Assembly: GCA_013178165.1 (NCBI GenBank)
Contig: JABLXG010000030.1
Span: forward strand, 1 to 40,897
DNA from: Anaerolineae bacterium
Lineage (GTDB): Bacteria; Chloroflexota; Anaerolineae; Aggregatilineales; Ch27
DNA: 40,897 bases
Direction: 5' to 3'
Shown: positions 22,626 to 35,932 of the stretch, piece after piece
Position numbering within the stretch: position 1 is the stretch's first letter
How the letters are laid out: each line of letters begins with the position of its first letter
Position numbers and translations under genes: made by a program
Notes under the pieces: generated by a model
The model's database searches: none
What the model was told of the DNA's origin: nothing
The model's input: only the letters and a program-made list of their open reading frames with translations

Positions 22626-22707
22626 GGATTATAATCAGCCTTAACCCTTCGCGTAGCCGGGGCGCCGGCAACCCCCAATGGCCGCCTTTTTTATGCGGGA
22701 TATCTTT

Positions 22708-23601
22708 ATGGAGCTCTATCTGGAAGCCTTTTTCGCCTGGCTGGGTGACGTCTCGACCAACACCCGCCGGACCTACACCAACGACCTGCGCCACTTCAGC
22801 CGCTGGTTCGAGGCGCAGCACGGCCAGCCGCCAGAACTGGCTGACCTGACTACGATGACGGTGGTGCTGTACAAAGCGGCCCTGGTCGACAAGCTGCGGC
22901 TCAAGCCTTCCAGTGTCAAGCGCCGGCTGTTGACCCTCAAGCGCTTCTGTCGCTGGGCAGCCGAGCAGGGCTACATCAAGGAGCTACCGGCCAAGGGGGT
23001 CAAGATCCCGCCGGTGCCCCCGAGCGGGCCGCGCAGCCTCGACCGGGCGGCGGTGCGGGCCTTGCTGCGGGCAGCGCGGCGGGATCCGCACAAGTTGGCC
23101 CGGCGCAACTACGCCATCCTGCGGGTCTTGCTGGACACCGGGATCCGGGTCGGCTCGCTGGTGGCGCTGCGGCTGGGGGATATTCGCTGGACAGAGAAGC
23201 GCCGGAAGGCTACCCTGCGGGTGCTGTATGGCAAGGGCAAGCGCTCCAATACCATCCCCCTGCCCTACACCACCCGGGCCGCCCTGGAGGACTACCTGGC
23301 GGTCCGGCCAGCGAGCGGGGACGACCACCTCTTCCTGTCCAGCCGGGGCACAGCCCTGGACACCGACACCGTCAGGCACGTGATTAACAAGTATGCCAGG
23401 CAGGCGGGCCTCGACCCGGGCGAGGTCTCCCCACACATGCTGCGCCACACCCTGGCCAGGATGCTACTGGCGAACGGCTCTCCCCTCACCGAGGTACAGG
23501 CCATTCTGGGGCATGCCCATATTACCTCGACCGCCATCTACACCCAGCCCAGCGAGGAAGAAAAGGCCAACGCCCTGGAGCGCGCCGCAGAGGAATTCTG
23601 A
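22708..23601 (+). CDS. Tyrosine recombinase / integrase
   Basis: This is a 297-residue phage-integrase/XerD-type recombinase. The N-terminal SAM-like core-binding domain (ELYLEAFFAWLGDVSTNTRR and on, residues 2-90) is followed by the catalytic domain with Arg147 (TGIRVGSL), Lys176 (GKGKR), HMLRH at 243-247, His269 (LGHAH) and the nucleophile Tyr278 (AIYTQ). All active-site residues are present. ATG 22708 follows GCGGGA at about 7 bases and begins exactly at the domain start; ATG 22678 and 22693 are alternatives. It cuts and joins DNA at specific sites and marks the left edge of the defence island, directly after the IS relic. It could mobilise the island or resolve multimers of a replicon. 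Codon use is clearly GC-rich compared with the preceding 1 kb. Confidence 0.93.
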   Translation: MELYLEAFFAWLGDVSTNTRRTYTNDLRHFSRWFEAQHGQPPELADLTTMTVVLYKAALVDKLRLKPSSVKRRLLTLKRFCRWAAEQGYIKELPAKGVKIPPVPPSGPRSLDRAAVRALLRAARRDPHKLARRNYAILRVLLDTGIRVGSLVALRLGDIRWTEKRRKATLRVLYGKGKRSNTIPLPYTTRAALEDYLAVRPASGDDHLFLSSRGTALDTDTVRHVINKYARQAGLDPGEVSPHMLRHTLARMLLANGSPLTEVQAILGHAHITSTAIYTQPSEEEKANALERAAEEF

Positions 23602-23773: not shown

Positions 23774-26700
23774 ATGTTATCTATTTTCCGCGCCTGCGAA
23801 CCGCGCACAGAAGTCCTATCAGGAGAGTTGCGGGAGGAGATCTTCGCGGCACGATTGCGGGATGTTATAGAAGGCCAGGCTGACGCTGTTTACCAAGACC
23901 CAACCATTTTCTTTGACAATACCTATCCCACAGAGGGCCTAGTCACGCTGTTGGGTGAAGCACTTGGCCGCCTGTCGGGGGCTAAACCAGCTAATAATGC
24001 CATTATCCGCCTGGAGACTGCCTTTGGTGGCGGCAAGACCCACAATTTGATTGCTCTCTATCATGCTGCCTCTGGCCACATCCCCCCAGCGAATTTCCTG
24101 GATCCTCAGCTCGTTCCACCCCCAGGCGCAGTGCGTATCGCCGGTGTTGTTGGTTCAGACCTGGATCCCACAATGGGCCTTCAACATGGTCATGTGACCA
24201 CTTATACCCTGTGGGGAGAAATCGCCTACCAGCTAGGCGGCGCCCAGGCGTATGAGTATGTCCGCCGTAGCGAAATCGACCGCACGGCCCCAGGCACCGG
24301 GCTTCTGGAAGAGCTGATCGGTGATCAGCCGACCCTGATTATGCTTGACGAGGTGGCCCGCCATCTGCGTGCGGCCAAGACGGTGCCCACCGCTACTGGC
24401 CGATCCGACCTGGCCGAACAGACGGTCGCTTTCCTCATGTCGCTCTTCGAGTTCGCAGCCAGCAAAAAGCAGGCGGTCATCGTGCTGACTCTGGCCGACG
24501 AGTCAGACGCATTTGGCAGAGAGACGGAGGAACTCCGGCAGGAAATCGCCAGGGAACTTGCAGAGACCAGGCGACTCTCTGCACGGCAGGAACTCGTGAT
24601 CACCCCCACCGTAGAGACCGAAATTGCCGCTATCGTCACTCACCGTCTGTTCAGACACATTGATCGTGCAGCGGCGGCCCACACGGCGCGCGCCTATATG
24701 GATTACTACCGGCAATGTGTGGCCCACAACGCCAATCTGCCCCAACGCGCGCTGCGCGCCGAGTATGCGCTTGAGATCGAAGCGAATTACCCCTTCCATC
24801 CCGACTTGCTGACCGCTCTTAACCGCAAAGTCTCCACCATCCCGAATTTTCAGAAGACGCGCGGCGCGCTACGCCTGCTCGCTATGGTAGTCCGCCAGCT
24901 ATGGAACTACCCCCAGGACGGGGTCTACCTGATACATCCCTTCAATGTGGACCTGGGGCATGAAGGTATCGCCAACGACCTGACGGGTCGCCTGGAGCGC
25001 CCGCGCTTCAAGCAGATCATCGAGGCGGATATTGTCAGCCACCTGGCCGGCTCGCAGGCGCACGCCCAGATTCTTGACGAAGCGATCGGCGGCGTTCCCT
25101 TCACCCAGCGCGTAGCCACCACCGCGTTCATCCACAGCCTGACCCAGGGCGTCGCTTCTGGCATCGATCCCGCCGATCTCACGCTGGCTGTGCTCACGCC
25201 CGATGATGACCCGGCACTGATCCAGCGCGCTGCGGATCGTCTGCTTGACAAGGGCTGGTACTTCGAATACGACGGCCACCGTTATCGCTTCAAGCCCGAG
25301 GTCTCGCTCAACAAGATCATCGAAGACGAGATGGGCGCGGTCGGTCTGGTCACGGCGAAGATGGAGCTTGATCAGCGCATCCGCCAGGTGTGGAAGAAAG
25401 GGTTCTTGAAGCCGGTCTTCTTCCCCAGCGAGCCAGCCGATGTCGATGATGACGCCGGCGCGCCGAAACTGGTCATCGTCCATTACGACGCGGCAGTCAC
25501 TGCCACGCAGAGCACAACCCCGCCCGACCTGGTCGTGCACCTGTTCAACCATACTGGCGTGCAGGAAGGCTACCGCATATTCAAGAACAACCTGGTTTTC
25601 CTGGTGGCAGATAGCGATCAGGTCGAGAACATGGTGGCCCACGCCCAGCGCTACCTCGCCATCCGCCGTATCCTCAACGATAATGAACGGCTGAACGACT
25701 TCTACGAGGATCAGCGCCAGAAACTCAAGCGCATGGGCGATGCGGCTGAGCTGGACGTGCGTGTAGCGATCACAAAGGCCTATCGCTGGCTGTACTACCC
25801 CAGCGGTGACGCCCCTCAGACCCACAGCAACCTGGCGCGCGAGCAGTTGCAGCCCCAGGATCAGGGCAAAGTCAATGTAGACCAGAGCGAAGTGGTGCTG
25901 CACATCCTGAAAACCCTCGAGAAGGTGCAGACGCAGGACTCGCCCTCTCTCTCGGCCAAGTTTGTCAGGTCCAAAGCCTGGGACGCAGGGAAAAACCACC
26001 TGAGCACCGAGGACTTGCGCCAGGCCTTTGCCCGCAAGATGAACTTGCGCATGCTGCTGGATGTCAACCAGCTTAAGAAAACCATCCGCAACGGTGTCGA
26101 GCAGGGGGTGTGGATCTACTACGACGCGCGCGAGCAGGTAGGCTACGACGCCGAGTCGCCGTTCCCTGTGATTCAGATCAATGACGAAACGTTCCTGTAC
26201 GACCCCGACGAGTACAAACGGCTCGGCTGGCCGATCCGTGGTAAGGAACCAGCCCCCCCGCCCGACGAACGTTGCCCCATTTGCGGGAACCTGGTGACAG
26301 AGTGCACCTGTGGCAGGCTGTCCACCACGCTGCCGAGGCAGCTGAAGGGCGAAGGCGTACCCCGTCAGGCTTTTCAACGTATTTACGACCTCTGCACGGA
26401 TCAGGGGATCACCCGGCTCCACACGCTGACCATCGACATCCAGGGCACTCACCAGCAGGGCGCGAACGAAGTGCGGGCGCTTGGGCTGGCCATCCCCCAG
26501 TTAGGGAAAGGGAACTTCCGGGTGGAGCAGAACCTGACGGTGGAGTTCGATGGTGGCGAGTACTTCCAGATCAGGTTTAAAGGTGGCTGGGATCGTTATA
26601 AACGCCTCAAGCAGGTGACCGATGCCTTTGCCCAGGAAGGACGCAAGCTCAACGTCGTCATGACCCTGCGTGCCGATTTGCCCGATGGGCTGGAAGTGCA

Positions 26701-26800
26701 GGGGGACCAATTCCGGACGATGTATGAAGTGTTCGACCAGCTCGGCTTTGGCTCCATAGTCGTTACCGCTGACCCCTTTGACGAGGATGCTCGGCCATGA
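23774..26800 (+). CDS. DUF499-type AAA ATPase of a methylase/helicase defence cassette
   Basis: This is a 1008-residue P-loop protein of the DUF499 type. The opening PRTEVLSGELREEIFAARL and FFDNTYPTEGL are characteristic. Walker A is GGGKTH at 85-90 and Walker B LIMLDE at 188-193, and a sensor-like VIVLTLADES follows. Around residues 833-847 CPICGNLVTECTCG is a four-Cys zinc knuckle. The C-terminal part (FRVEQNLTVEFDGGEYFQIR and on) is unassigned. DUF499 proteins occur next to DUF1156 methylases and SNF2-type helicases in predicted anti-phage cassettes; the ATPase is presumed to be a motor or a sensor. ATG 23774 follows GGGGAGGA at good spacing. The stop overlaps the next start (ATGA), so the ASCH gene is translationally coupled. 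Confidence 0.88.
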   Translation: MLSIFRACEPRTEVLSGELREEIFAARLRDVIEGQADAVYQDPTIFFDNTYPTEGLVTLLGEALGRLSGAKPANNAIIRLETAFGGGKTHNLIALYHAASGHIPPANFLDPQLVPPPGAVRIAGVVGSDLDPTMGLQHGHVTTYTLWGEIAYQLGGAQAYEYVRRSEIDRTAPGTGLLEELIGDQPTLIMLDEVARHLRAAKTVPTATGRSDLAEQTVAFLMSLFEFAASKKQAVIVLTLADESDAFGRETEELRQEIARELAETRRLSARQELVITPTVETEIAAIVTHRLFRHIDRAAAAHTARAYMDYYRQCVAHNANLPQRALRAEYALEIEANYPFHPDLLTALNRKVSTIPNFQKTRGALRLLAMVVRQLWNYPQDGVYLIHPFNVDLGHEGIANDLTGRLERPRFKQIIEADIVSHLAGSQAHAQILDEAIGGVPFTQRVATTAFIHSLTQGVASGIDPADLTLAVLTPDDDPALIQRAADRLLDKGWYFEYDGHRYRFKPEVSLNKIIEDEMGAVGLVTAKMELDQRIRQVWKKGFLKPVFFPSEPADVDDDAGAPKLVIVHYDAAVTATQSTTPPDLVVHLFNHTGVQEGYRIFKNNLVFLVADSDQVENMVAHAQRYLAIRRILNDNERLNDFYEDQRQKLKRMGDAAELDVRVAITKAYRWLYYPSGDAPQTHSNLAREQLQPQDQGKVNVDQSEVVLHILKTLEKVQTQDSPSLSAKFVRSKAWDAGKNHLSTEDLRQAFARKMNLRMLLDVNQLKKTIRNGVEQGVWIYYDAREQVGYDAESPFPVIQINDETFLYDPDEYKRLGWPIRGKEPAPPPDERCPICGNLVTECTCGRLSTTLPRQLKGEGVPRQAFQRIYDLCTDQGITRLHTLTIDIQGTHQQGANEVRALGLAIPQLGKGNFRVEQNLTVEFDGGEYFQIRFKGGWDRYKRLKQVTDAFAQEGRKLNVVMTLRADLPDGLEVQGDQFRTMYEVFDQLGFGSIVVTADPFDEDARP

Positions 26801-27720
26801 AAACCCTCTCGATCCGCCAACCCTGGGCCGAATTGATCCTGCAGGGGCGCAAGACAATCGAGCTGCGCACCTGGCGCACGAACTATCGCGGCCCGTTGTT
26901 GATCCACGCGGGCGGGAATGTTGAGTACGATGCCTGCGCCGCTTACGGTCTTGACCCTGAGGTGCTTGTGCGCGGGGCGCTGGTGGGCACGGTTGAGGTT
27001 GTGGACATGGTGACGTTCAACCACGCCAGCTTTGCTGCGCTGCGCAACGAACATCTCGACCCGGGCGAGTGGCCCGGCGATCTCGTCGGCTGGCGGCTGG
27101 CCAACCCCTGCCGCCTGCCCGCCCCGATCCCCCTGCGCGGTCGCCTGGGCCTGTTTGAAATCCCGGATGAAGTGCTTGCGGGCAACGCCCCCGTACCACA
27201 TTACCTGACCCCCCGGCAACCCGCTGGCCCACCGTCGCCGCGCCCGCTCCCTCCCCCACCTGCCGGGCCACCGCCGCATGGGTATGACCCGACCAGGCCC
27301 TTCGAACTGCATGTTGAGCCACGTGACGCGCATGGTTACGCCCTGACCCTCTACCAGTGGCCGGTGAAGGCTAATGGAGTCCCGGCGGAAGCCAGGCGGA
27401 TCGTCACCCTGAGCGGCGTGAACCTGCTGGCGGTGGTCGATCACGTGCTGGAGGCGCTGCGCCGCACCGGCTACAGGACGACCGATCTCTCATCCCGGCG
27501 GCACAAACCCTTCCGCCTGGATGAAGAAACCGGCCTGCGCCTGGGACTCCTGTTCCTGACCATCGCCCCGCTTTCCCGCCTGGACCGCATCGAAGCGATC
27601 TCGCGCGAGCTGCGCGCCATGCCCTCCGAAGAGGCCTATTACTGGTATAGTAAATGCACCGACCCGCGCGCCAGCGGGCGTGCCCAGCAGGCACTGCGCA
27701 CCCTGTTGGCGGCTGAGTAA
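26797..27720 (+). CDS. ASCH-domain protein of the defence cassette
   Basis: This is a 307-residue two-part protein. Residues 1-125 form an ASCH/PUA-like domain: TLSIRQPWAELILQGRKTIE with the RTW and YRGPLLIHAG strands. These folds bind RNA or modified bases. A Pro-rich linker (about 135-160) leads to a C-terminal domain of unknown function (HGYALTLYQWPVK, then EAYYWYSKCTDPRASGRAQQ). It starts inside the stop of the DUF499 gene (ATGA), so the two proteins are made together. A role in recognising modified or foreign nucleic acid is plausible from the fold but is inference. I know related proteins beside DUF499 genes only vaguely. There is no signal or membrane segment. Confidence 0.8.
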   Translation: MKTLSIRQPWAELILQGRKTIELRTWRTNYRGPLLIHAGGNVEYDACAAYGLDPEVLVRGALVGTVEVVDMVTFNHASFAALRNEHLDPGEWPGDLVGWRLANPCRLPAPIPLRGRLGLFEIPDEVLAGNAPVPHYLTPRQPAGPPSPRPLPPPPAGPPPHGYDPTRPFELHVEPRDAHGYALTLYQWPVKANGVPAEARRIVTLSGVNLLAVVDHVLEALRRTGYRTTDLSSRRHKPFRLDEETGLRLGLLFLTIAPLSRLDRIEAISRELRAMPSEEAYYWYSKCTDPRASGRAQQALRTLLAAE

Positions 27721-27811: not shown

Positions 27812-28063
27812 ATGATTACGGTAACTGTCGGAAAGAGAGGGCAGATTACGCTGCCCAGCGCCGTCCGCCGGCGGACGGGCATCCAGGATGGCGACCGCAT
27901 GGCCATCTCGCTCGAAGGGGACCGCATCGTCTTGCTGCCGCTCGGCAAAACGCTGCTCGATCTGCGCGGTAGCATCGCGGTAACCGCCCCGCAAGACTTC
28001 GCGCAGATCCGCCGGCAGGTGCTCCAGCAGCGCGCAAGAAGGGCAGACGCCCATGAAGGGTGA
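27812..28063 (+). CDS. vapB: AbrB/MazE-type antitoxin of a VapBC pair
   Basis: This is an 83-residue swapped-hairpin (SpoVT/AbrB) DNA-binding protein: ITVTVGKRGQITLPSAVRRR then GIQDGDRMAISLEGDRIVLL. The C-terminal tail should wrap the toxin. The start at 27812 has AAAGGAGA about 8 bases upstream. Its 3' end overlaps the PIN gene by 11 bases, the usual layout that keeps antitoxin ahead of toxin. It represses its own promoter in known systems. It lies between the ASCH gene and the methyltransferase gene, so it is embedded in the defence operon. Confidence 0.88.
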   Translation: MITVTVGKRGQITLPSAVRRRTGIQDGDRMAISLEGDRIVLLPLGKTLLDLRGSIAVTAPQDFAQIRRQVLQQRARRADAHEG

Positions 28064-28472
28064 GACGATCTTCGCCGACACCAACCTCTTCCTGCGCTTC
28101 CTGACCAACGACGTGCCGGAGCAGGCCGACGCCGTAGAACGGCTGCTGCGCCGTGCGGCTGCGGGGGAATTGCGGCTGGTGACCAGCGCTCTGGTCGTGA
28201 GCGAGATCGTCTGGACGCTGGAATCGTTCTACGGCCTGCCCAAGAAGGCCGTGCGCGAGCATGTCCTGGCCATCCTGAACACGCCCGGCCTGGAGGTGGC
28301 CGAGGCGGATACCCTGCTGCAGGCCACCATCTGGTATGAAGAGAAGAACGTGGACTTCGTCGACGCTTTCAACGCTGCCTGGCTGCTGGATGGCGGGCTG
28401 GAGCGCATTGCGACCTTCGACCGCAGGCATTTCGCCCGCTTCAAGGGCATTTCGGTGCTGGTGCCTGGGTAG
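28053..28472 (+). CDS. vapC: PIN-domain toxin ribonuclease
   Basis: This is a 139-residue PIN-domain RNase. The acidic centre is complete: Asp9 (FADTN), Glu51 (VVSEIVWTLE), Asp101/Asp104 (NVDFVDAFNA) and Asp123 (ATFDRRH). VapC toxins cut tRNA or rRNA when freed from VapB. The ATG lies within the antitoxin gene. It is followed after 68 bases by the methyltransferase start. Position within the cassette suggests that it could act as a guard that kills or stalls the cell if the cassette is lost or disturbed; that is inferred. Confidence 0.9.
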   Translation: MKGETIFADTNLFLRFLTNDVPEQADAVERLLRRAAAGELRLVTSALVVSEIVWTLESFYGLPKKAVREHVLAILNTPGLEVAEADTLLQATIWYEEKNVDFVDAFNAAWLLDGGLERIATFDRRHFARFKGISVLVPG

Positions 28473-28539
28473 CGCTGGCTGAGGCCCGCCTTTATTCTGG
28501 CCGATGGCGGGCCGTTGTGAGACTCCGGGAGAAAACCTC

Positions 28540-31476
28540 ATGCCTGACCCCCGCCCCCCCGTCCTGATTGAAGACTGGTTGCCCTTTGAGGCCGTCGGCG
28601 CTGAGAGCCAGCGCGAACGCGGCGCGAGCAGCGCCCTGCCGCCGCTGTACTTTTTGCATGTATGGTGGGCGCGCCGCCCGCTGACCGTCAGCCGGGCGGC
28701 GATCCTGGCGGGCGCCCTGCCGCAGTGGTCGCCCGACTGGCCGGAGCCGCTGCGACGGCGCTTCCCCGACGAAGGGAGCTACCGCGACTGGTTCGTGCAC
28801 CTGCTGGGCATTCGGGGCAATCCGATTGAAGGGCGGAAGCGGACAGTAGAGGCCAAGAACTCAGGAGAGTGGGAGAAAGACCCCTACCGTGGCGCGCCGC
28901 GCGCCTTCACCGTCAACCCGTCCCCCGAAGACCTGGCGCTGCTGCGCGACCTGCTGGAAATCACCTGGGGGACGCGCGACGTGACGGTGATGGACGTGAC
29001 GGCGGGCGGCGGCTCGATCCCCTTTGAGGCGCTGCGCTACGGCTTCACCACCTGCGCCAACGAGCTGAACCCGGTCGCGTCGGTCATCCTCAAGGCCACG
29101 CTCGACTATCCGGCGCGCTATGGGGTTGGACTGGCGGCAGATATTCAGCAATGGGGCAAACGCTGGTACGAGTTGGTCAAGGCGCGGCTGCAACCATATT
29201 TCACGCCGTTGCCACCCGGCGCAGAGGGCGCGGCCTACCTCTGGGCGCGGACGGTCGCCTGCCCGGTCACCGGCAAACCCGTGCCGCTCTCGCCCAACTG
29301 GTGGCTGAGCCGGGGCAAGGATAAGGTCGCCGTGCAACTGATCGCCGACCCCGCCCGGGACGCGCCGCAGTTCGTGATCAAGCGCGGCGACGCGATCGAC
29401 TTTGACCCGGACGCGGGCACGGTCAGCCGGGGCGTGGGCCTTTCGCCCTGGACGGGCGAGGCGATCCCCGGTGAGTACATCAAGGCCGAGGCGCAGGCCG
29501 GGCGCATGGGGCAGATGCTCTATGCGGTGGCCGTCAAGCGCACGGGCGGCTTCGACTTCCGCCCCCCGACCGCCGACGACCTGGAAGGCGTGCGCCGCGC
29601 CGAGATCGCGCTGGCCGAGCGCCTGCCCGCCTGGGAGGCGGCGGGGCTGGTGCCGAGGGAGCCTTATCCCGAAGTCAGCAACGACCCGCGCCCGCTGATC
29701 TACGGGATGCCGACCTGGGCCGACTTCTTCTCCCCGCGCCAGCTGCTGGCGATGCTGACCTTCCTGGAGACCTTGCGCGAGGTCGGGCGCGAGCTGCGCG
29801 CGAACATGGACGCGGATCGCGCGGCGGCGGTGGAGACGTATTTGGGGCTGGCGCTGGATAAGTGCCCGAACTACAACTGTCTTCAGTCGCGTTGGCATCC
29901 GCCGCGTGCTGTTATTGCACCTGTTTTTGATCGCCACGATTTCAGCTTCAAATGGACTTACGCTGAGTTTGACGCGGCGGCTAACCTTCTCCCGTGGGGC
30001 GTCACTCAGGTCGTGGATGCGTATACGGGTATGGCTGAGCTTGCCAGCCCTGCGCAATATCCGTTGTGGCGGGCTGAGGGCGTACCGCCGTTTGAGCGTT
30101 TGGCAATATGGCAAGAGTCAGCGACCGATCTAGCCCAAGTCCCCAGCGGCAGCCTGCACAACATCACCTTCGACCCGCCCTACTACGACAACGTGATGTA
30201 CGCCGAGCTGGCCGACTTCTTCTATGTGTGGCTCAAGCGCTCGGTGGGGCATCTCTTCCCGCAGTTCTTCGCCGATCACCTGACCAACAAGGACGATGAA
30301 GCGGTCGCCAATGTCGCCCGCTTTGAGGGTATGGGCCGCAACAAGCGCGCCCTGGCCGAGCAGGACTACCAGCGCAAGATGGAGGCGATCTTCCGCGAGT
30401 GTCACCGTATGCTGCGCGACGACGGCGTGCTGACGATCATGTTCACGCATAAAAAGGTCGAGGCCTGGGATACGCTGGCCAGCGCGCTGATCAACGCCGG
30501 CTTCTCGGTGCAGGCGTCGTGGCCGGTCCACACCGAGAGCGAGCATTCGCTGCATCAGGCGAAGAAGAACGCCGCGCAGAGCACCATCCTGCTGGCCTGC
30601 CGCAAGCGCCAGGCCTCCGGCGAGCCGGTCTGGTGGGACGACATCCGCGGGCAGGTGCAGCGCGTCGCCCGCGAGAAGGCGGCGGCGTTCGCGGCGCAGG
30701 GCGTCGGCGGCGTGGACCTCTACATCAGCACATTCGGCCCGGCGCTGTCGGTCATCTCGGCGCACTGGCCTGTGCTCACCAGCGCGATCGATGAGCGTAC
30801 GGGCCAGCCGGTGCCGCTGCGCCCGGAGACGGCGCTCGACCTGGCGCGTGAGGAAGTGATCAAGCTGCGCAAGCGGGGCCTGCTGCTGGGCCGCGACATT
30901 CAGTTTGACCCGTTCACCGACTGGTATATCATGGCCTGGGATGCCTTCAAAGCGGTCGAGTTCCCCTACGACGAGGCGCGCAAGCTGGCGATTGCCCTGG
31001 GCGTGGACATGGACGGCGAGGTGCGCGGGCACAAGAACCTGGTGGCGCGCAAGGGGAGCAATGTGGTGCTGCAGGCGCCGGTGCAGCGCCGCAAGCGCGG
31101 GATGGTCGATCCCGATCTGTCGGTTTTTGAGAGCATGATTGATGCAGTCCACACGGCGCTGCTGGTACTGGGCGAGGACGGCACGTACGCCTGCGAAGCG
31201 TTCCTCAAGCGCTCCGGCCTGCTGAACGATGGGCAGTTCCGGCAGTGTATCCAGGCGCTGATCAACGCGATCCCACGCACGAAAGTGAAGGGGGAATGGG
31301 TGCGCGTGGAGGCGGAGTTGCTCGAACGGCTGCGGGCGAACTTCTATCCTGATCTGGAAGTCCCGCCGGAAGAAACGCCGCCCGCGCTGCCGCAACAGTT
31401 GGGGCTGTTCGATCAGGCGGGCACGGGTGATGCGGAGTTCGAGGACGAGGAGGACTTCGGGGAGGATGACGCATGA
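28540..31476 (+). CDS. DUF1156-type DNA methyltransferase
   Basis: This is a 978-residue DNA methylase. The N-terminal DUF1156-like part includes PPLYFLHVWWARRPLTVSRA (residues 35-54). SAM motif I is MDVTAGGGSIPFEALRYG (151-168) and the catalytic motif IV is DPPYYDN from residue 545, the order used by N6-adenine/N4-cytosine methylases with a long insertion between them. LRDDGVLTIMFTHKK follows. The start at 28540 is preceded by GGGAG; a longer frame from 28504 is less likely. The stop overlaps the helicase start (ATGA). The enzyme presumably marks self DNA for the cassette. A stretch at about 29880-30125 uses T-ending codons unlike the GC-rich rest. Confidence 0.9.
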   Translation: MPDPRPPVLIEDWLPFEAVGAESQRERGASSALPPLYFLHVWWARRPLTVSRAAILAGALPQWSPDWPEPLRRRFPDEGSYRDWFVHLLGIRGNPIEGRKRTVEAKNSGEWEKDPYRGAPRAFTVNPSPEDLALLRDLLEITWGTRDVTVMDVTAGGGSIPFEALRYGFTTCANELNPVASVILKATLDYPARYGVGLAADIQQWGKRWYELVKARLQPYFTPLPPGAEGAAYLWARTVACPVTGKPVPLSPNWWLSRGKDKVAVQLIADPARDAPQFVIKRGDAIDFDPDAGTVSRGVGLSPWTGEAIPGEYIKAEAQAGRMGQMLYAVAVKRTGGFDFRPPTADDLEGVRRAEIALAERLPAWEAAGLVPREPYPEVSNDPRPLIYGMPTWADFFSPRQLLAMLTFLETLREVGRELRANMDADRAAAVETYLGLALDKCPNYNCLQSRWHPPRAVIAPVFDRHDFSFKWTYAEFDAAANLLPWGVTQVVDAYTGMAELASPAQYPLWRAEGVPPFERLAIWQESATDLAQVPSGSLHNITFDPPYYDNVMYAELADFFYVWLKRSVGHLFPQFFADHLTNKDDEAVANVARFEGMGRNKRALAEQDYQRKMEAIFRECHRMLRDDGVLTIMFTHKKVEAWDTLASALINAGFSVQASWPVHTESEHSLHQAKKNAAQSTILLACRKRQASGEPVWWDDIRGQVQRVAREKAAAFAAQGVGGVDLYISTFGPALSVISAHWPVLTSAIDERTGQPVPLRPETALDLAREEVIKLRKRGLLLGRDIQFDPFTDWYIMAWDAFKAVEFPYDEARKLAIALGVDMDGEVRGHKNLVARKGSNVVLQAPVQRRKRGMVDPDLSVFESMIDAVHTALLVLGEDGTYACEAFLKRSGLLNDGQFRQCIQALINAIPRTKVKGEWVRVEAELLERLRANFYPDLEVPPEETPPALPQQLGLFDQAGTGDAEFEDEEDFGEDDA

Positions 31477-34400
31477 CCTCGCTGCGCGAAGTCGAGTGGC
31501 AGATCTCCTACGGCCCCTCGGATGACCGGCTGAACCGCTTTTACATCCCGGCGCTCCAGCGCAGCGTGCAGTACGACCGCAGCACGGGCTTCTTCAGCAG
31601 TTCGGCGCTGGCAGTGGCGGCGGCGGGCGTGGCCGGGCTGATCGCCAACGGCGGCAGGATGCGGCTGCTGGTCGGGGCGCAGCTCAGCCGCGAGGATGTG
31701 GAGGCGGTTACCCGCGGCGCGGCGCTGGAGGGAATCGTCGCTGAGAAGCTGATCGCGGCGCTGGAGGAGCCGGTGGAGGATTTGCTGCGCCGCCGCCTTG
31801 AGATTCTGGCCTGGATGATCGCGCGGGGCACGCTGCAGATCAAAGTTGTCCTGCCGCGCGATGCGCATGGGCTGCCTGTCCCGGCGGATCAGGCCCAGGA
31901 CTATTACCATCCTAAAGAGGGGGTGTTCACCGACGCGGCGGGCAATCAGGTCGCCTTCAGTGGCAGCATCAATGAGTCGATGACCGGCTGGCAGCGCAAC
32001 TATGAGCAGTTCAGCGTCTACTTCTCGTGGGACAGCAGCCAACCTTACCTGCGGCAGGTCGTGCACCGATTCAACAATGTCTGGGAAGGTCGCGAGCGAG
32101 GCTGGATCGCCTTCGATATCCCCCAGGCGGCACGCCAGTCGCTGTTGCGGTTCGTGCCAGCCAATGCCCCCGAACACGATCCGCTGGCTCCGCCGCCAGT
32201 CATTGCCGTTCCACCTCCCGATCTGGAAGCGCAGCTTCGCCGCGAGCGCCTGATCTTCCAGTTCATCCGCGACATTCCCTACTTTCCCAACGCCGGGCAG
32301 CTCGGCGCGGCGACGTGCACGATCACGCCCTGGCCGCACCAGATGCGCGTGGCGCAGCAGATCATCGAGACCTATCCCAGGCGCTACATGCTGTGCGACG
32401 AGGTCGGGCTGGGCAAGACCATCGAAGCCGGGCTGGTGCTGCGGCAACTGGTCATTTCCGGTCGGGTGAAGCGCTGCCTGCTGCTCGTGCCGAAGTCGGT
32501 CGCGCGCCAGTGGCAGGAGGAGCTGTACGAGAAATTCGTGCTCGATGTGCCGCTTTTCGATGGCAAGCGGTTCTGGAACTACGCGGGGGAAGCGCTGGAA
32601 TACAACACCGGCAATCCCTGGGACGCTTTTGACATGATGATCGCCTCCAGCCAGCTTGCCAAGCGCCGCACCCAGCAGGAGCGCGTGACGTCCGCGCGCC
32701 CGTGGGACCTGGTGCTGGTCGACGAAGCACACCATGCCCGCCGGCGCGACTTCCTGCAGCCCATCTACCGCCCGAACCGTCTGCTCGAACTGCTCACCGC
32801 TCCTGACTTCAGGGCCAACGCCATCCTCTTAATGACCGCTACGCCGATGCAGGTCCACCCGCTGGAAGTGTGGGACCTGCTCAAGGTATTGGGTCTGGGC
32901 GGCAAGTGGGGCGCAGACGAGGGAAACTTCCTGCGCTTTTATTCTGAACTGATGAAGCCCTTTGACGAAATCGACTGGGATTTCGTATTTGAGATGTTGA
33001 ACGACTATCGGGAATACAGCGGGCAAATCGATCCAGAGTTTGAGGAGGAGATCGATGACGCGCTGGGGGTCGTGGACGGGGCCAGGCTGCAGCAATTGCT
33101 GAATGCTCCCCACCCCTCGCGGGAGGTACGTTCACTGCCGGAGAATGCAAAACCCTACATTGTCAAGATGGCGCGTCGACACACGCCATTGCGGGCATTG
33201 ATGTTCCGCAATACGCGTGACTTGCTGCGGGAATATGTCCGGTGCGGACTGTTGAAGGAAAATGTCCCCACCCGTGATCCGCAACTGGTCTGGATACCCA
33301 TGCGCCCTGACGAGATGGCGCTCTACCAGCGTATCGAAGAGTACATCTCCGATTTCTACCGGAAGTATGAGAATGAGCGCAAGGGCCTGGGTTTTGTGAT
33401 GACGGTCTACCGCCGCCGCCTGACCAGCAGCTTCTATGCGGTCCAGAAAAGCCTGGAACGCCGACTGGATTACCTGCGCGGGCGCGCTGTGCAGGTCTTT
33501 GACGATGACGACCTTGAGCAGGCCTATCTCGAGCAGGATGACACTGAGGAAATTGTGGATGAAAACCAGCGCGCGCTGTACAAGGATGAGATTGACTACG
33601 TAGAGACGTTCATCCGCGATCTTCAGCCACTTGTACCCCAGGATTCCAAAACCGACCAGCTTATCCAGGACCTGAATGATCTCTTCCGGAAGCGTGAGAC
33701 AGCGCTGGTTTTCACCCAATATACCGACACCATGGATTACCTGCGCGACAAACTGCGCCAGGTGTACGGCAATCAGGTGGCCTGCTATAGCGGTCGTGGC
33801 GGTGAGGTCTGGAATGGCATCGCCTGGGTCAGTATTGCCAAGGAAGAAATCAAGCAAAAGTTCCGGGAAGGGAAAGAGGTCAAGATTCTGGTCTGCACCG
33901 AAGCGGCTAGCGAAGGTCTGAACCTGCAAAGCTGCGGTGTCTTGATCAACTACGACATGCCCTGGAATCCGATGCGGGTGGAACAGCGCATCGGCCGTAT
34001 TGACCGTATTGGTCAGGTGTACTCTGAAGTCTGGATTCGTAACTACTTTTACGAAGAAACAGTTGAAGCGCGGGTGTACCAGGCTCTGGCCAGGCGCATC
34101 AACTGGTTCAAAGGGGTTGTTGGCGATCTGCAGCCGATTCTGGCCCGGGTCGGGCAGGCTATTGAACGCGTGGTGATGACTACACCTGACGAGCGAGAGC
34201 GCGTGCTGGCCGGAGAACTTGATGAAATCGAGCGGAAACTCGATCAAAAAGGGGATATTCTGAATGTCTATGAGAGTAGTGAGAGCGTTCGTCCCGGGGT
34301 AGGGATAGCTGCTCCGATTACGCTTGACGAACTTGAGCGCTGTTTTCTAGAAAGCTCGTTCTTTGCTCACCAGTTCATCCCTCACCCGGACATTAAAGAG

Positions 34401-35135
34401 GCTTACCTGATCAACGCTGCCGGTGAGCAGGCCGTGGTAACCTTTAAGCCAGAGCTTTTTGATCGTTTCCCTAATTCTCTTCAACTGTTGTCCTATGGCA
34501 ATCAGACGCTGGATGCCCTGCTTGACCAGGACTCACTCCCTGAGCGTGACGTGTATCTTGGGATCGCTCGTTTCTCTTCAGACAATATCGTGCCGTTGAA
34601 GGCCTACTATGGTTTGAATCAGGATGGGCAACCGGTCCTGCTCCGGACACTGCAAGATCTCTTGGGGGCACTCAAGAACACCCATGAAGCCGGTACATGG
34701 ACTCAGGAAGCCCGCCAGCGAGCTGAAGAGGATTTTGAGAAGTATGTACAGGACGCCCGCAAAAAATACACCAGCGTTACAGATCTGCGCCTATCTGCCA
34801 CAGCCGCGGCGCTAGTAGAGCAAGCCGTTCGGATTGTTTTTCAGGCTACCCTGCTCGATCTATTGCTGGATGGGAACTTCAGCACAGCAGAAGACGCTTG
34901 GCACGCCATCACAACAGGCAACCAGCTGACCCAGAATCTGGTACGTCACGGGTATCCATTTACAGCCTTACTGGAACTGGCTTCGAGACAGAAGCATAGA
35001 GCAAGCGTACCCAGGCTAGAACTCGACGTTTTCAGCAATGCAGGCCCAGATCAACTTAAGAGGATGTTTCGTGATGTACGGCAAGAGGGAGAGACATTGC
35101 TTAAGCGTTGGAAAAAGATGCAGAAACACGGATAG
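31473..35135 (+). CDS. PLD-like nuclease fused to SNF2/RapA-type helicase
   Basis: This is a 1220-residue fusion. The N-terminal phospholipase D-like domain (about 1-195) carries HPKEGVFTD and then FSGSINES, matching HxK...D...GSxN of PLD nucleases. An SF2 helicase follows: DEVGLGKTIEAG near 309, VDEAHHARRR near 416, TATPMQ near 456, a long insertion, then TALVFTQYTDT, EAASEGLNLQ and QRIGRIDRIGQ near 837. The C-terminal 300 residues are helical and unassigned. It is the effector-like member of the cassette, probably translocating on double-stranded DNA and cutting it. It shares an ATGA overlap with the methylase. Codon use becomes less GC-rich in the second half. Confidence 0.9.
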   Translation: MTSLREVEWQISYGPSDDRLNRFYIPALQRSVQYDRSTGFFSSSALAVAAAGVAGLIANGGRMRLLVGAQLSREDVEAVTRGAALEGIVAEKLIAALEEPVEDLLRRRLEILAWMIARGTLQIKVVLPRDAHGLPVPADQAQDYYHPKEGVFTDAAGNQVAFSGSINESMTGWQRNYEQFSVYFSWDSSQPYLRQVVHRFNNVWEGRERGWIAFDIPQAARQSLLRFVPANAPEHDPLAPPPVIAVPPPDLEAQLRRERLIFQFIRDIPYFPNAGQLGAATCTITPWPHQMRVAQQIIETYPRRYMLCDEVGLGKTIEAGLVLRQLVISGRVKRCLLLVPKSVARQWQEELYEKFVLDVPLFDGKRFWNYAGEALEYNTGNPWDAFDMMIASSQLAKRRTQQERVTSARPWDLVLVDEAHHARRRDFLQPIYRPNRLLELLTAPDFRANAILLMTATPMQVHPLEVWDLLKVLGLGGKWGADEGNFLRFYSELMKPFDEIDWDFVFEMLNDYREYSGQIDPEFEEEIDDALGVVDGARLQQLLNAPHPSREVRSLPENAKPYIVKMARRHTPLRALMFRNTRDLLREYVRCGLLKENVPTRDPQLVWIPMRPDEMALYQRIEEYISDFYRKYENERKGLGFVMTVYRRRLTSSFYAVQKSLERRLDYLRGRAVQVFDDDDLEQAYLEQDDTEEIVDENQRALYKDEIDYVETFIRDLQPLVPQDSKTDQLIQDLNDLFRKRETALVFTQYTDTMDYLRDKLRQVYGNQVACYSGRGGEVWNGIAWVSIAKEEIKQKFREGKEVKILVCTEAASEGLNLQSCGVLINYDMPWNPMRVEQRIGRIDRIGQVYSEVWIRNYFYEETVEARVYQALARRINWFKGVVGDLQPILARVGQAIERVVMTTPDERERVLAGELDEIERKLDQKGDILNVYESSESVRPGVGIAAPITLDELERCFLESSFFAHQFIPHPDIKEAYLINAAGEQAVVTFKPELFDRFPNSLQLLSYGNQTLDALLDQDSLPERDVYLGIARFSSDNIVPLKAYYGLNQDGQPVLLRTLQDLLGALKNTHEAGTWTQEARQRAEEDFEKYVQDARKKYTSVTDLRLSATAAALVEQAVRIVFQATLLDLLLDGNFSTAEDAWHAITTGNQLTQNLVRHGYPFTALLELASRQKHRASVPRLELDVFSNAGPDQLKRMFRDVRQEGETLLKRWKKMQKHG

Positions 35136-35249: not shown

Positions 35250-35471
35250 ATGACCATCAGCGAGATTGTGAAACAGGCGCAAGCCCTCAGTCAGCAAGAT
35301 CGTAAGGAATTGATCAAGCTCCTGATTGATTCACTGGACGTGGAGACTCCGCCGGCGCTCCGTCGCCGACGTTTATCTGAGCTGCGCGGCCTGGGCAAGG
35401 AAATCTGGCAGGATATCGACGCTCAGGAGTATGTCAATCGTCTGCGTGACGAGTGGGATCGCCAGCAGTGA
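35250..35471 (+). CDS. Small antitoxin-like protein (second TA pair)
   Basis: This is a 73-residue helical protein. Its start MTISEIVKQAQALSQQDRKE followed by LIKLLIDSL is a pattern common to small addiction-module antitoxins that precede PIN toxins. The C-terminal half is charged and probably binds the toxin. Its last codons overlap the toxin start (GTGA). It is not of the AbrB type, so this pair is not a copy of the VapBC pair at 27.8 kb. Confidence 0.75.
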   Translation: MTISEIVKQAQALSQQDRKELIKLLIDSLDVETPPALRRRRLSELRGLGKEIWQDIDAQEYVNRLRDEWDRQQ

Positions 35472-35932
35472 AGATCAGCACGGCTCTGGCTGGTGTTCGA
35501 CAGCTATACATTGAGACCGCCCCGCTGATTTATTACGTGGAACTGAATCCAGACTATACCGCCAGGATGGATGCCATTGTGGCTGCCATCGAAACGGCCT
35601 CTATTGAGGCGGTCAGCTCAGTGATCACGCTGGTTGAGGTATTGAGCCATCCAATGAAAGTGGGTGATCAGCGCCTGATCCAGGAATATCGTGACATTCT
35701 GGTCAACAGTGGTGAGTTTCGCCTTGTCCCTGTGACTGCCCGGATTGCCGAGTATGCCGCCGAAATGCGTGCGCGTTACAACCTTCGTACGCCGGACGCA
35801 CTGCATGTGTCTTCAGCAGTTCTTACAGGCTGCGACGCTTTCCTGACCAACGATGCCGGTTTGGAACGCGTTACAGAGATCCGGATCCTGGTTTTGAACG
35901 CCCTGGAACTCGACGTGCCGTCAGAGCGCTGA
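35468..35932 (+). CDS. PIN-domain toxin (second TA pair)
   Basis: This is a 154-residue PIN-domain protein. I choose the GTG at 35468, which overlaps the antitoxin stop by four bases (GTGA), over an upstream ATG at 35453. The acidic positions are Glu16 (YIETAPLIYYVE), Glu57 (TLVEVL), Asp110 (TPDALHVSSA) and Asp129 (FLTNDAGL). The first is normally Asp, so metal binding at the catalytic site could be altered although Glu may still serve. The expected activity is RNA cleavage upon antitoxin loss. It ends about 100 bases before a convergent gene. Confidence 0.82.
   Translation: MKISTALAGVRQLYIETAPLIYYVELNPDYTARMDAIVAAIETASIEAVSSVITLVEVLSHPMKVGDQRLIQEYRDILVNSGEFRLVPVTARIAEYAAEMRARYNLRTPDALHVSSAVLTGCDAFLTNDAGLERVTEIRILVLNALELDVPSER

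Follow-up and report, generated by a model that had tools for sequence, protein, structure and literature searches.

Loci centred on DUF499 ATPases have been divided into three BREX-related (BR) subtypes, of which Type-2 carries an HKD-Snf2 helicase and a DUF3780 protein (PMC12839542). As described in that source, DUF3780 is in some proteins joined to an ASCH/PUA or RAMA reader, and a reader role has been proposed for DUF3780; because such ASCH-DUF3780 fusions were already in print in 2026, the novelty of the present case is limited. EVE domains encoded beside DUF499 systems have been proposed to discriminate modified bases (PMC7641849). Passages of PMC10853773 mention a different ASCH protein, joined to a REase and encoded beside Orc/Cdc6-type ATPases, and name neither DUF499 nor DUF3780.

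Here, an ASCH fusion encoded next to a DUF499 ATPase was analyzed in a 40,897-nucleotide contig of an Anaerolineae bacterium of the phylum Chloroflexota (the whole stretch is hereafter called the window). We place at roughly 0.6 the probability that the protein made from this gene is the third subunit, checking substrates, in a BREX-related anti-phage system that resembles restriction-modification, with an ASCH reader tethered to a DUF7680 domain. The protein probably helps a restriction-like defence to tell foreign DNA from its own.

The ASCH-DUF7680 gene and its locus

The putative system would comprise a DUF499 ATPase, the ASCH-DUF7680 protein, a DUF1156 adenine methylase and an HKD-Snf2 helicase-nuclease. 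The locus contains the following features.

22678–23601, + strand: XerC/D-like tyrosine recombinase directly upstream (mobility; Pfam Phage_integrase, E 4.1e-36)
23774–26800, + strand: DUF499 AAA+ ATPase, its stop overlapping the ASCH-DUF7680 start (Pfam PF04465, E 5e-40; PADLOC HmaC, 358.6 bits; GGGKT and LIMLDE in the sequence)
26797–27186, + strand: ASCH domain, residues 1–130 (Pfam PF04266, E 2.3e-8 at residues 4–88; fold match to TRIP4 ASCH, Z 15.2)
27187–27300, + strand: proline-rich linker, residues 131–168, probably flexible (pLDDT about 60 around residues 141–160; pTM 0.61)
27301–27711, + strand: DUF7680 domain, residues 169–305, remote DUF3780 homologue (Pfam PF24728, E 4.4e-38; profile comparison with DUF3780; predicted secondary structure)
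27812–28063, + strand: AbrB/MazE-type antitoxin, cargo (Pfam MazE_antitoxin, E 2.7e-10)
28053–28472, + strand: PIN-domain toxin, cargo (Pfam PIN, E 3.8e-11)
28504–31476, + strand: DUF1156 N6-adenine-type DNA methyltransferase with DPPY in the sequence (Pfam DUF1156, E 2e-13; PADLOC HmaB, 255.4 bits)
31473–35135, + strand: HKD (PLD-like) nuclease-Snf2 helicase fusion, its ATG overlapping the methyltransferase stop (Pfam Helicase_C, E 1.1e-19, and SNF2, E 3e-15; NCBIfam NF042964, 375.2 bits, below the cut-off of 1100)
31908–31973, + strand: HKD-like motif HPKEGVFTDAAGNQVAFSGSIN, near helicase residue 146 (pattern match)

The ASCH-DUF7680 gene is a 307-aa ORF (26797–27720, + strand). Its ATG (26797–26799) overlaps the TGA of the DUF499 ORF (26798–26800) in a 4-nt ATGA at 26797–26800, which bears out the preliminary description, where the start was placed inside the ATPase stop. 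The ASCH assignment made there also stands, with a score of 35.1 bits for PF04266 against a curated cut-off of 21.2. The C-terminal domain, which had been left unassigned, was found to be DUF7680, at 131.1 bits against a curated cut-off of 24; a literature search found no paper on this domain. The AlphaFold2 model of the fusion protein has a mean pLDDT of 91.4. The pLDDT near 60 in the linker and the pTM of 0.61 suggest that the two domains are probably joined flexibly.

The Pfam PLDc_2 match of the window helicase is weak (E 0.0049). Of the 52 helicase ORFs that reach 800 aa at DUF7680 loci, 48 show an HKD pattern. One of the four without it is at L059, and those at L042, L103 and L125 are additional helicases, either second ones or on the opposite strand.

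The interval between DUF7680 and DUF1156 serves as a cargo site, exceeding 1.5 kb in 35 of 74 loci; in the window it holds the MazE-PIN pair, and a second PIN-domain gene follows the helicase at 35453–35932 (Pfam). Among ten ORFs scanned in this interval were GmrSD nucleases (two), a Schlafen/AlbA protein and an OLD-like nuclease (TOPRIM ATPase), noted at L073:10431-12143, L074:3274-5010, L086:10449-12158 and L057:7352-9568. DUF499-DUF7680 loci on cyanobacterial plasmids (L002, L003, L004 and L005) have insertions before DUF1156 or the helicase, with ThiF E1-like, multiubiquitin, HTH-ImmA, S8 peptidase, PIN or RelE genes; L003 is annotated solely as hypothetical proteins.

DUF7680, its partner ATPase and its relation to DUF3780

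Genome contigs were scanned with a DUF7680 alignment, using a single short peptide pattern; of the 95 loci, the best 80 were combined with the window, 17 phylum-sample loci and four plasmid loci; removal of eight duplicates left 94 DUF7680 loci. Because one short pattern and the best 80 of 95 loci were used, close relatives are over-represented in this set, and an even sample of 400 genomes from the window's phylum provided a less biased check.

DUF499 is present at 91 of the 94 loci, lies −60 to +500 nt upstream of DUF7680 in 87 and overlaps it by four nucleotides, in frame, in 38, all three counts being from the set that includes the best 80 of 95 scanned loci. The three loci without DUF499 are two that start at a contig edge (L081 and L091) and one fragmented locus (L134). 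Coupling by start/stop overlap is thus common, though not universal, and the link to the ATPase proposed from the window turns out to be systematic. Among the 50 loci with all four genes, 49 have them on one strand and ordered DUF499-DUF7680-DUF1156-helicase. L064 departs from this, with a DUF1156 ORF that begins ahead of DUF7680, probably because its start is over-extended.

In the phylum sample, DUF7680 was found in 18 of 400 genomes. In seventeen of these, Pfam detects DUF499 no further than 5 kb away, and the eighteenth (G265) has a partial DUF499 detected with a custom profile. The same 400 genomes contain 109 DUF499 loci, in 92 genomes. Within 5 kb of these, 17 have DUF7680, seven have DUF3780, none has both and 85 have neither; the DUF7680 gene therefore marks a subset of DUF499 systems. 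As to whether an ASCH gene always accompanies this ATPase, the survey proposed in the preliminary description, the constant partner is DUF7680, and ASCH is a fusion of one lineage (see below). At L096:4318-5118, a 266-aa ORF joins the DUF499 N-terminus in frame to DUF7680, which looks like a deletion of the greater part of the ATPase together with any ASCH domain.

The position occupied by DUF7680 is that of DUF3780, which immediately follows DUF499 and precedes DUF1156 and the PLD helicase in 8/8 annotated plasmid loci (8 of 20 hits were examined). Profile comparison identifies a new link: DUF7680 is remotely homologous to DUF3780, which Type-2 BR loci carry as their third gene. Alignment of the two profiles with hhalign gave a probability of 28.7% in one direction (score 27.7, E 6e-4) and 89.4% in the other (score 41.6, E 2e-6, 107 columns); the score with match columns alone was 24.1. 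By comparison, 300 column shuffles of DUF3780 had a mean score of 12.3 (sd 2.3, maximum 22.8), the reversed alignment scored 15.4, and the highest score among 35 decoy segments from neighbouring families was 16.9. A first hhalign run, with a DUF3780 set that included two wrong-frame rows (L050 and L055), had returned 5.3%; these rows were taken out of the final DUF3780 alignment, and 44 HMM-aligned domains were brought in.

Searches with the Pfam models point in the same direction from one side. For the DUF3780 proteins L152 (E 0.006) and L143 (E 0.0076), the DUF7680 model ranks directly behind that of DUF3780 among 24,736 Pfam models, below its own cut-off, and the cross-match is colinear (69–164 to 46–140). 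The same model matches three of 25 DUF3780 proteins on viral contigs, with a best E of 0.027. From the other side, the Pfam DUF3780 model matched none of the 58 DUF7680 rows scanned at E 1; for this model (PF12635) there was likewise no match listed for the ASCH-DUF7680 protein of the window up to E 1 and none in the genome to which the window belongs (G000).

The AlphaFold2 models of the fusion and of a DUF3780 protein (pLDDT 91.4 and 84.4) have a common order of three strands, a long helix, a strand and four helices, the long helix being broken in the DUF7680 model; this agreement concerns the order of predicted elements. The order also agrees with the description of DUF3780 in PMC12839542. 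In addition, the motifs EE-x-YYW...RALRxLL and EERWW...GWRKAxRxAL occupy the same place. Profile similarity beyond the controls and the same predicted topology place DUF7680 within a wider DUF3780 superfamily. It is improbable that the two families are unrelated and converged on the same slot: the ordinary single-sequence scores are weak and the Pfam DUF3780 model misses the DUF7680 rows, but the profile score exceeds all shuffles and decoys, the Pfam cross-match emerged from the full set of models, and the predicted topology is shared.

Foldseek returned no match at E 0.001 or better for the DUF3780 model. Chain 8aj8_B, shared by both models over overlapping ranges in VIA-align (Z 6.5 and 5.6), was dropped since a Z under 8 is at noise level. 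The DUF3780 variants of three viral contigs (L180, L176 and L178) are short and lack the N-terminal FGF segment that is otherwise usual; they are perhaps closer to DUF7680 in build.

The ASCH domain and its possible roles

The ASCH fusion is present at 20 of the 94 DUF7680 loci and absent from 74 (the best 80 of 95 scanned loci included). Its recurrence at non-redundant loci, together with the high mean pLDDT of the model, indicates an arrangement beyond chance; the 74 relatives without ASCH show that the domain cannot be essential to the system. In the DUF7680 tree, all 20 fused rows fall within one group of 23 rows (SH-aLRT 88), which is from Chloroflexota where named. The three unfused rows in this group suggest one gain of ASCH and up to three losses, and two of them (L076 and L096) look degenerate. 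The fusion is thus a lineage-specific add-on of one Chloroflexota lineage.

The best fold match of the ASCH model is the ASCH domain of human TRIP4 (Z 14.7–15.2; at Z 15.2, rmsd 2.9 over 122 aligned residues, 25% identity), structures of which contain double-stranded DNA, namely two different 12-mers and an 11-mer. EOLA1, ZmASCH (Z 12.5–12.8, 17% identity), TTHA0113 and YqfB (Z 8.5) follow, and other PUA-fold matches include the modified-base readers THYN1, the McrB N-domain and YTH. In a Foldseek search with the fusion model, ASCH domains were the sole strong PDB matches, and the strong BFVD matches were ASCH-type viral proteins. Conserved residues are K19, R24, T25, W26 and R31 in 19/19 fused ASCH domains covering the site, and H86, W99 and R116 in 20/20. 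Human TRIP4 (ASC-1) has the K-x2-E-x-R-x-W and RG motifs in common with the window domain. Unlike the window protein, TRIP4 has no DUF7680 and attaches to its helicase through a zinc finger and a lasso peptide, as described in PMC10076317. Resemblance of the ASCH model to the TRIP4 domain that binds double-stranded DNA makes a DNA-reading role plausible.

A loading or processivity role like that of TRIP4 with ASCC3 is a possible, more tentative alternative. The ASCH domain would then bind duplex or exiting DNA and raise the affinity of the ATPase-helicase, with no reading of modifications. The fold match to a domain solved with double-stranded DNA is consistent with this; according to PMC10076317, TRIP4 raises the DNA affinity of the ASCC3 helicase about tenfold via its ASCH domain, which is needed for helicase stimulation. 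However, identity to TRIP4 is low, the PUA-fold matches also include modified-base readers, and the two roles can coexist.

It is highly unlikely that ASCH is an enzyme for modified nucleotides or bases and DUF7680 its scaffold, whether the enzyme is pictured as an amidohydrolase like YqfB or as a glycosylase-like defence enzyme. YqfB is among the fold matches, and the ASCH-like BapA is reported in PMC13160076 as a 5hmC DNA glycosylase in phage defence. Against this, the position of the YqfB nucleophile Thr24 (PMC6972931), mapped by K-x2-T-x-R spacing alone, is Glu (8) or Asp (11) in 19/19 fused domains, as in the K-x2-E-x-R of TRIP4. By this spacing the Lys-Thr-Glu triad of YqfB-type ac4C amidohydrolases is lacking, and the change at the nucleophile position makes a YqfB-type activity unlikely.

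Slimmer still is the chance that ASCH targets RNA as a back-up toxic arm, whether as a sensor or as the nuclease claimed for ZmASCH (the title of PMC5615036 names an RNase activity), since only the fold match, at 17% identity, points to RNA and the remaining core proteins belong to DNA-directed families. The nucleotide-signal sensor raised in the preliminary description was dropped, as no result supports it.

Two rhizobial plasmids encode a standalone ASCH protein, 44% and 38% identical to the window ASCH (L006:4799-10411 and L007:4664-10417). In both, it comes last in gene sets that look alike, after a protein of about 1000 aa (with CHAT in L006) and two unnamed genes; this is possibly a separate defence cassette.

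For the subunit with a tethered reader, the following sequence of events is proposed. DUF7680, as a divergent DUF3780 domain, would be the constant module, probably docking on the ATPase that is translated from the shared, coupled mRNA. A TRIP4-type ASCH domain would have been added once to its N-terminus, through the flexible proline-rich tether, in the Chloroflexota lineage. This domain is likely to bind double-stranded DNA, either to test how the DNA is modified or to deliver it, and the check would precede loading of the helicase-nuclease by the ATPase. TRIP4 with ASCC3, where ASCH increases the engagement of a helicase with DNA (PMC10076317), is a precedent for this scheme too. DNA without the self mark, or with a foreign mark, would be passed to the helicase-nuclease, and the DUF1156 enzyme would mark self DNA. 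If the fused ASCH reads base modifications, the way in which these systems tell self from phage DNA becomes directly testable.

Comparison with BREX-related and Hma systems

The DUF7680-linked ATPases form their own clade in the DUF499 tree, with 46 of 47 rows (support 99) and the long-branched L043 outside. A second tree, rooted with BrxC, was built from 53 of 97 DUF499 rows and eight BrxC rows, leaving out long-branched and many near-redundant rows; it resolved separate clades of 22 DUF7680-linked (99), 19 DUF3780-linked (100) and 12 other (100) ATPases. In this tree the DUF7680-linked group joins the others, which lack the third gene (99), and not the DUF3780 clade. Both trees were quick searches. 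As the DUF7680-linked ATPases sit outside the DUF3780 clade, shared ancestry of the whole system with Type-2 is not simple.

For the same reason, the DUF7680 loci look like an unnamed fourth BR subtype; the trees may also be read as an ancestral state that was later changed. A broader proposal, which we regard as tentative, is that these loci are a fourth separate subtype, that the DUF3780/DUF7680 adaptor is a universal plug for the ATPase, and that the reader plugged into it is exchangeable, being ASCH here and RAMA or nothing elsewhere. If true, swapping the reader would shift the DNA modification that a given engine attacks or tolerates. DUF7680, a Pfam domain for which the literature search returned no description, gains a testable place and partner and is united with DUF3780; an apparently unnamed clade is added to a large restriction-like defence family.

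Among described systems, Type-2 BR (DUF499-DUF3780-DUF1156-HKD/Snf2; PMC12839542; 'anti-phage-associated' in NCBIfam) is alike in its four functions, their order, the HKD-Snf2 helicase and a gene of predicted DUF3780 fold after DUF499. In the window, a DUF499 ATPase, a DUF1156 methylase and a helicase are found by Pfam in one locus, and an HKD-like motif, with the weak PLDc_2 match, lies N-terminal to the Snf2 helicase. Unlike Type-2, the window has no standalone DUF3780: its third gene carries the homologue DUF7680, which falls outside the Pfam DUF3780 model. Three of its core proteins score far below the NCBIfam cut-offs (253/1200, 207/1000 and 375/1100 bits), and its ATPase belongs to a clade separate from the DUF3780-linked one (SH-aLRT 99–100 in the quick trees). 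No ASCH-fused canonical DUF3780 was found at E 0.01 among the ORFs of 49 loci (L136–L184), of which L183 and L184 are loci with DUF7680. PglZ, which marks Type-3, was absent by Pfam from the nine window proteins scanned, the rest of the window having been read as translations.

Hma (HmaA helicase, HmaB methylase and HmaC ATPase in PADLOC), or Type-1 BR, resembles the window in that HmaC and HmaB are the top-scoring models for the ATPase and the methylase. All three Hma models match when applied without cut-offs, and the helicase scores higher with BrxH, PbeA and PLD_Helicase than with HmaA. Unlike Hma, the window has an N-terminal HKD nuclease on the helicase and the extra ASCH-DUF7680 gene. 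The archaeal loci in which EVE accompanies DUF499-COG1743-SWI2/SNF2-nuclease genes, as described in PMC7641849, also have a PUA-superfamily domain beside the same core genes; there EVE is a standalone gene, whereas in the window ASCH is fused to DUF7680.
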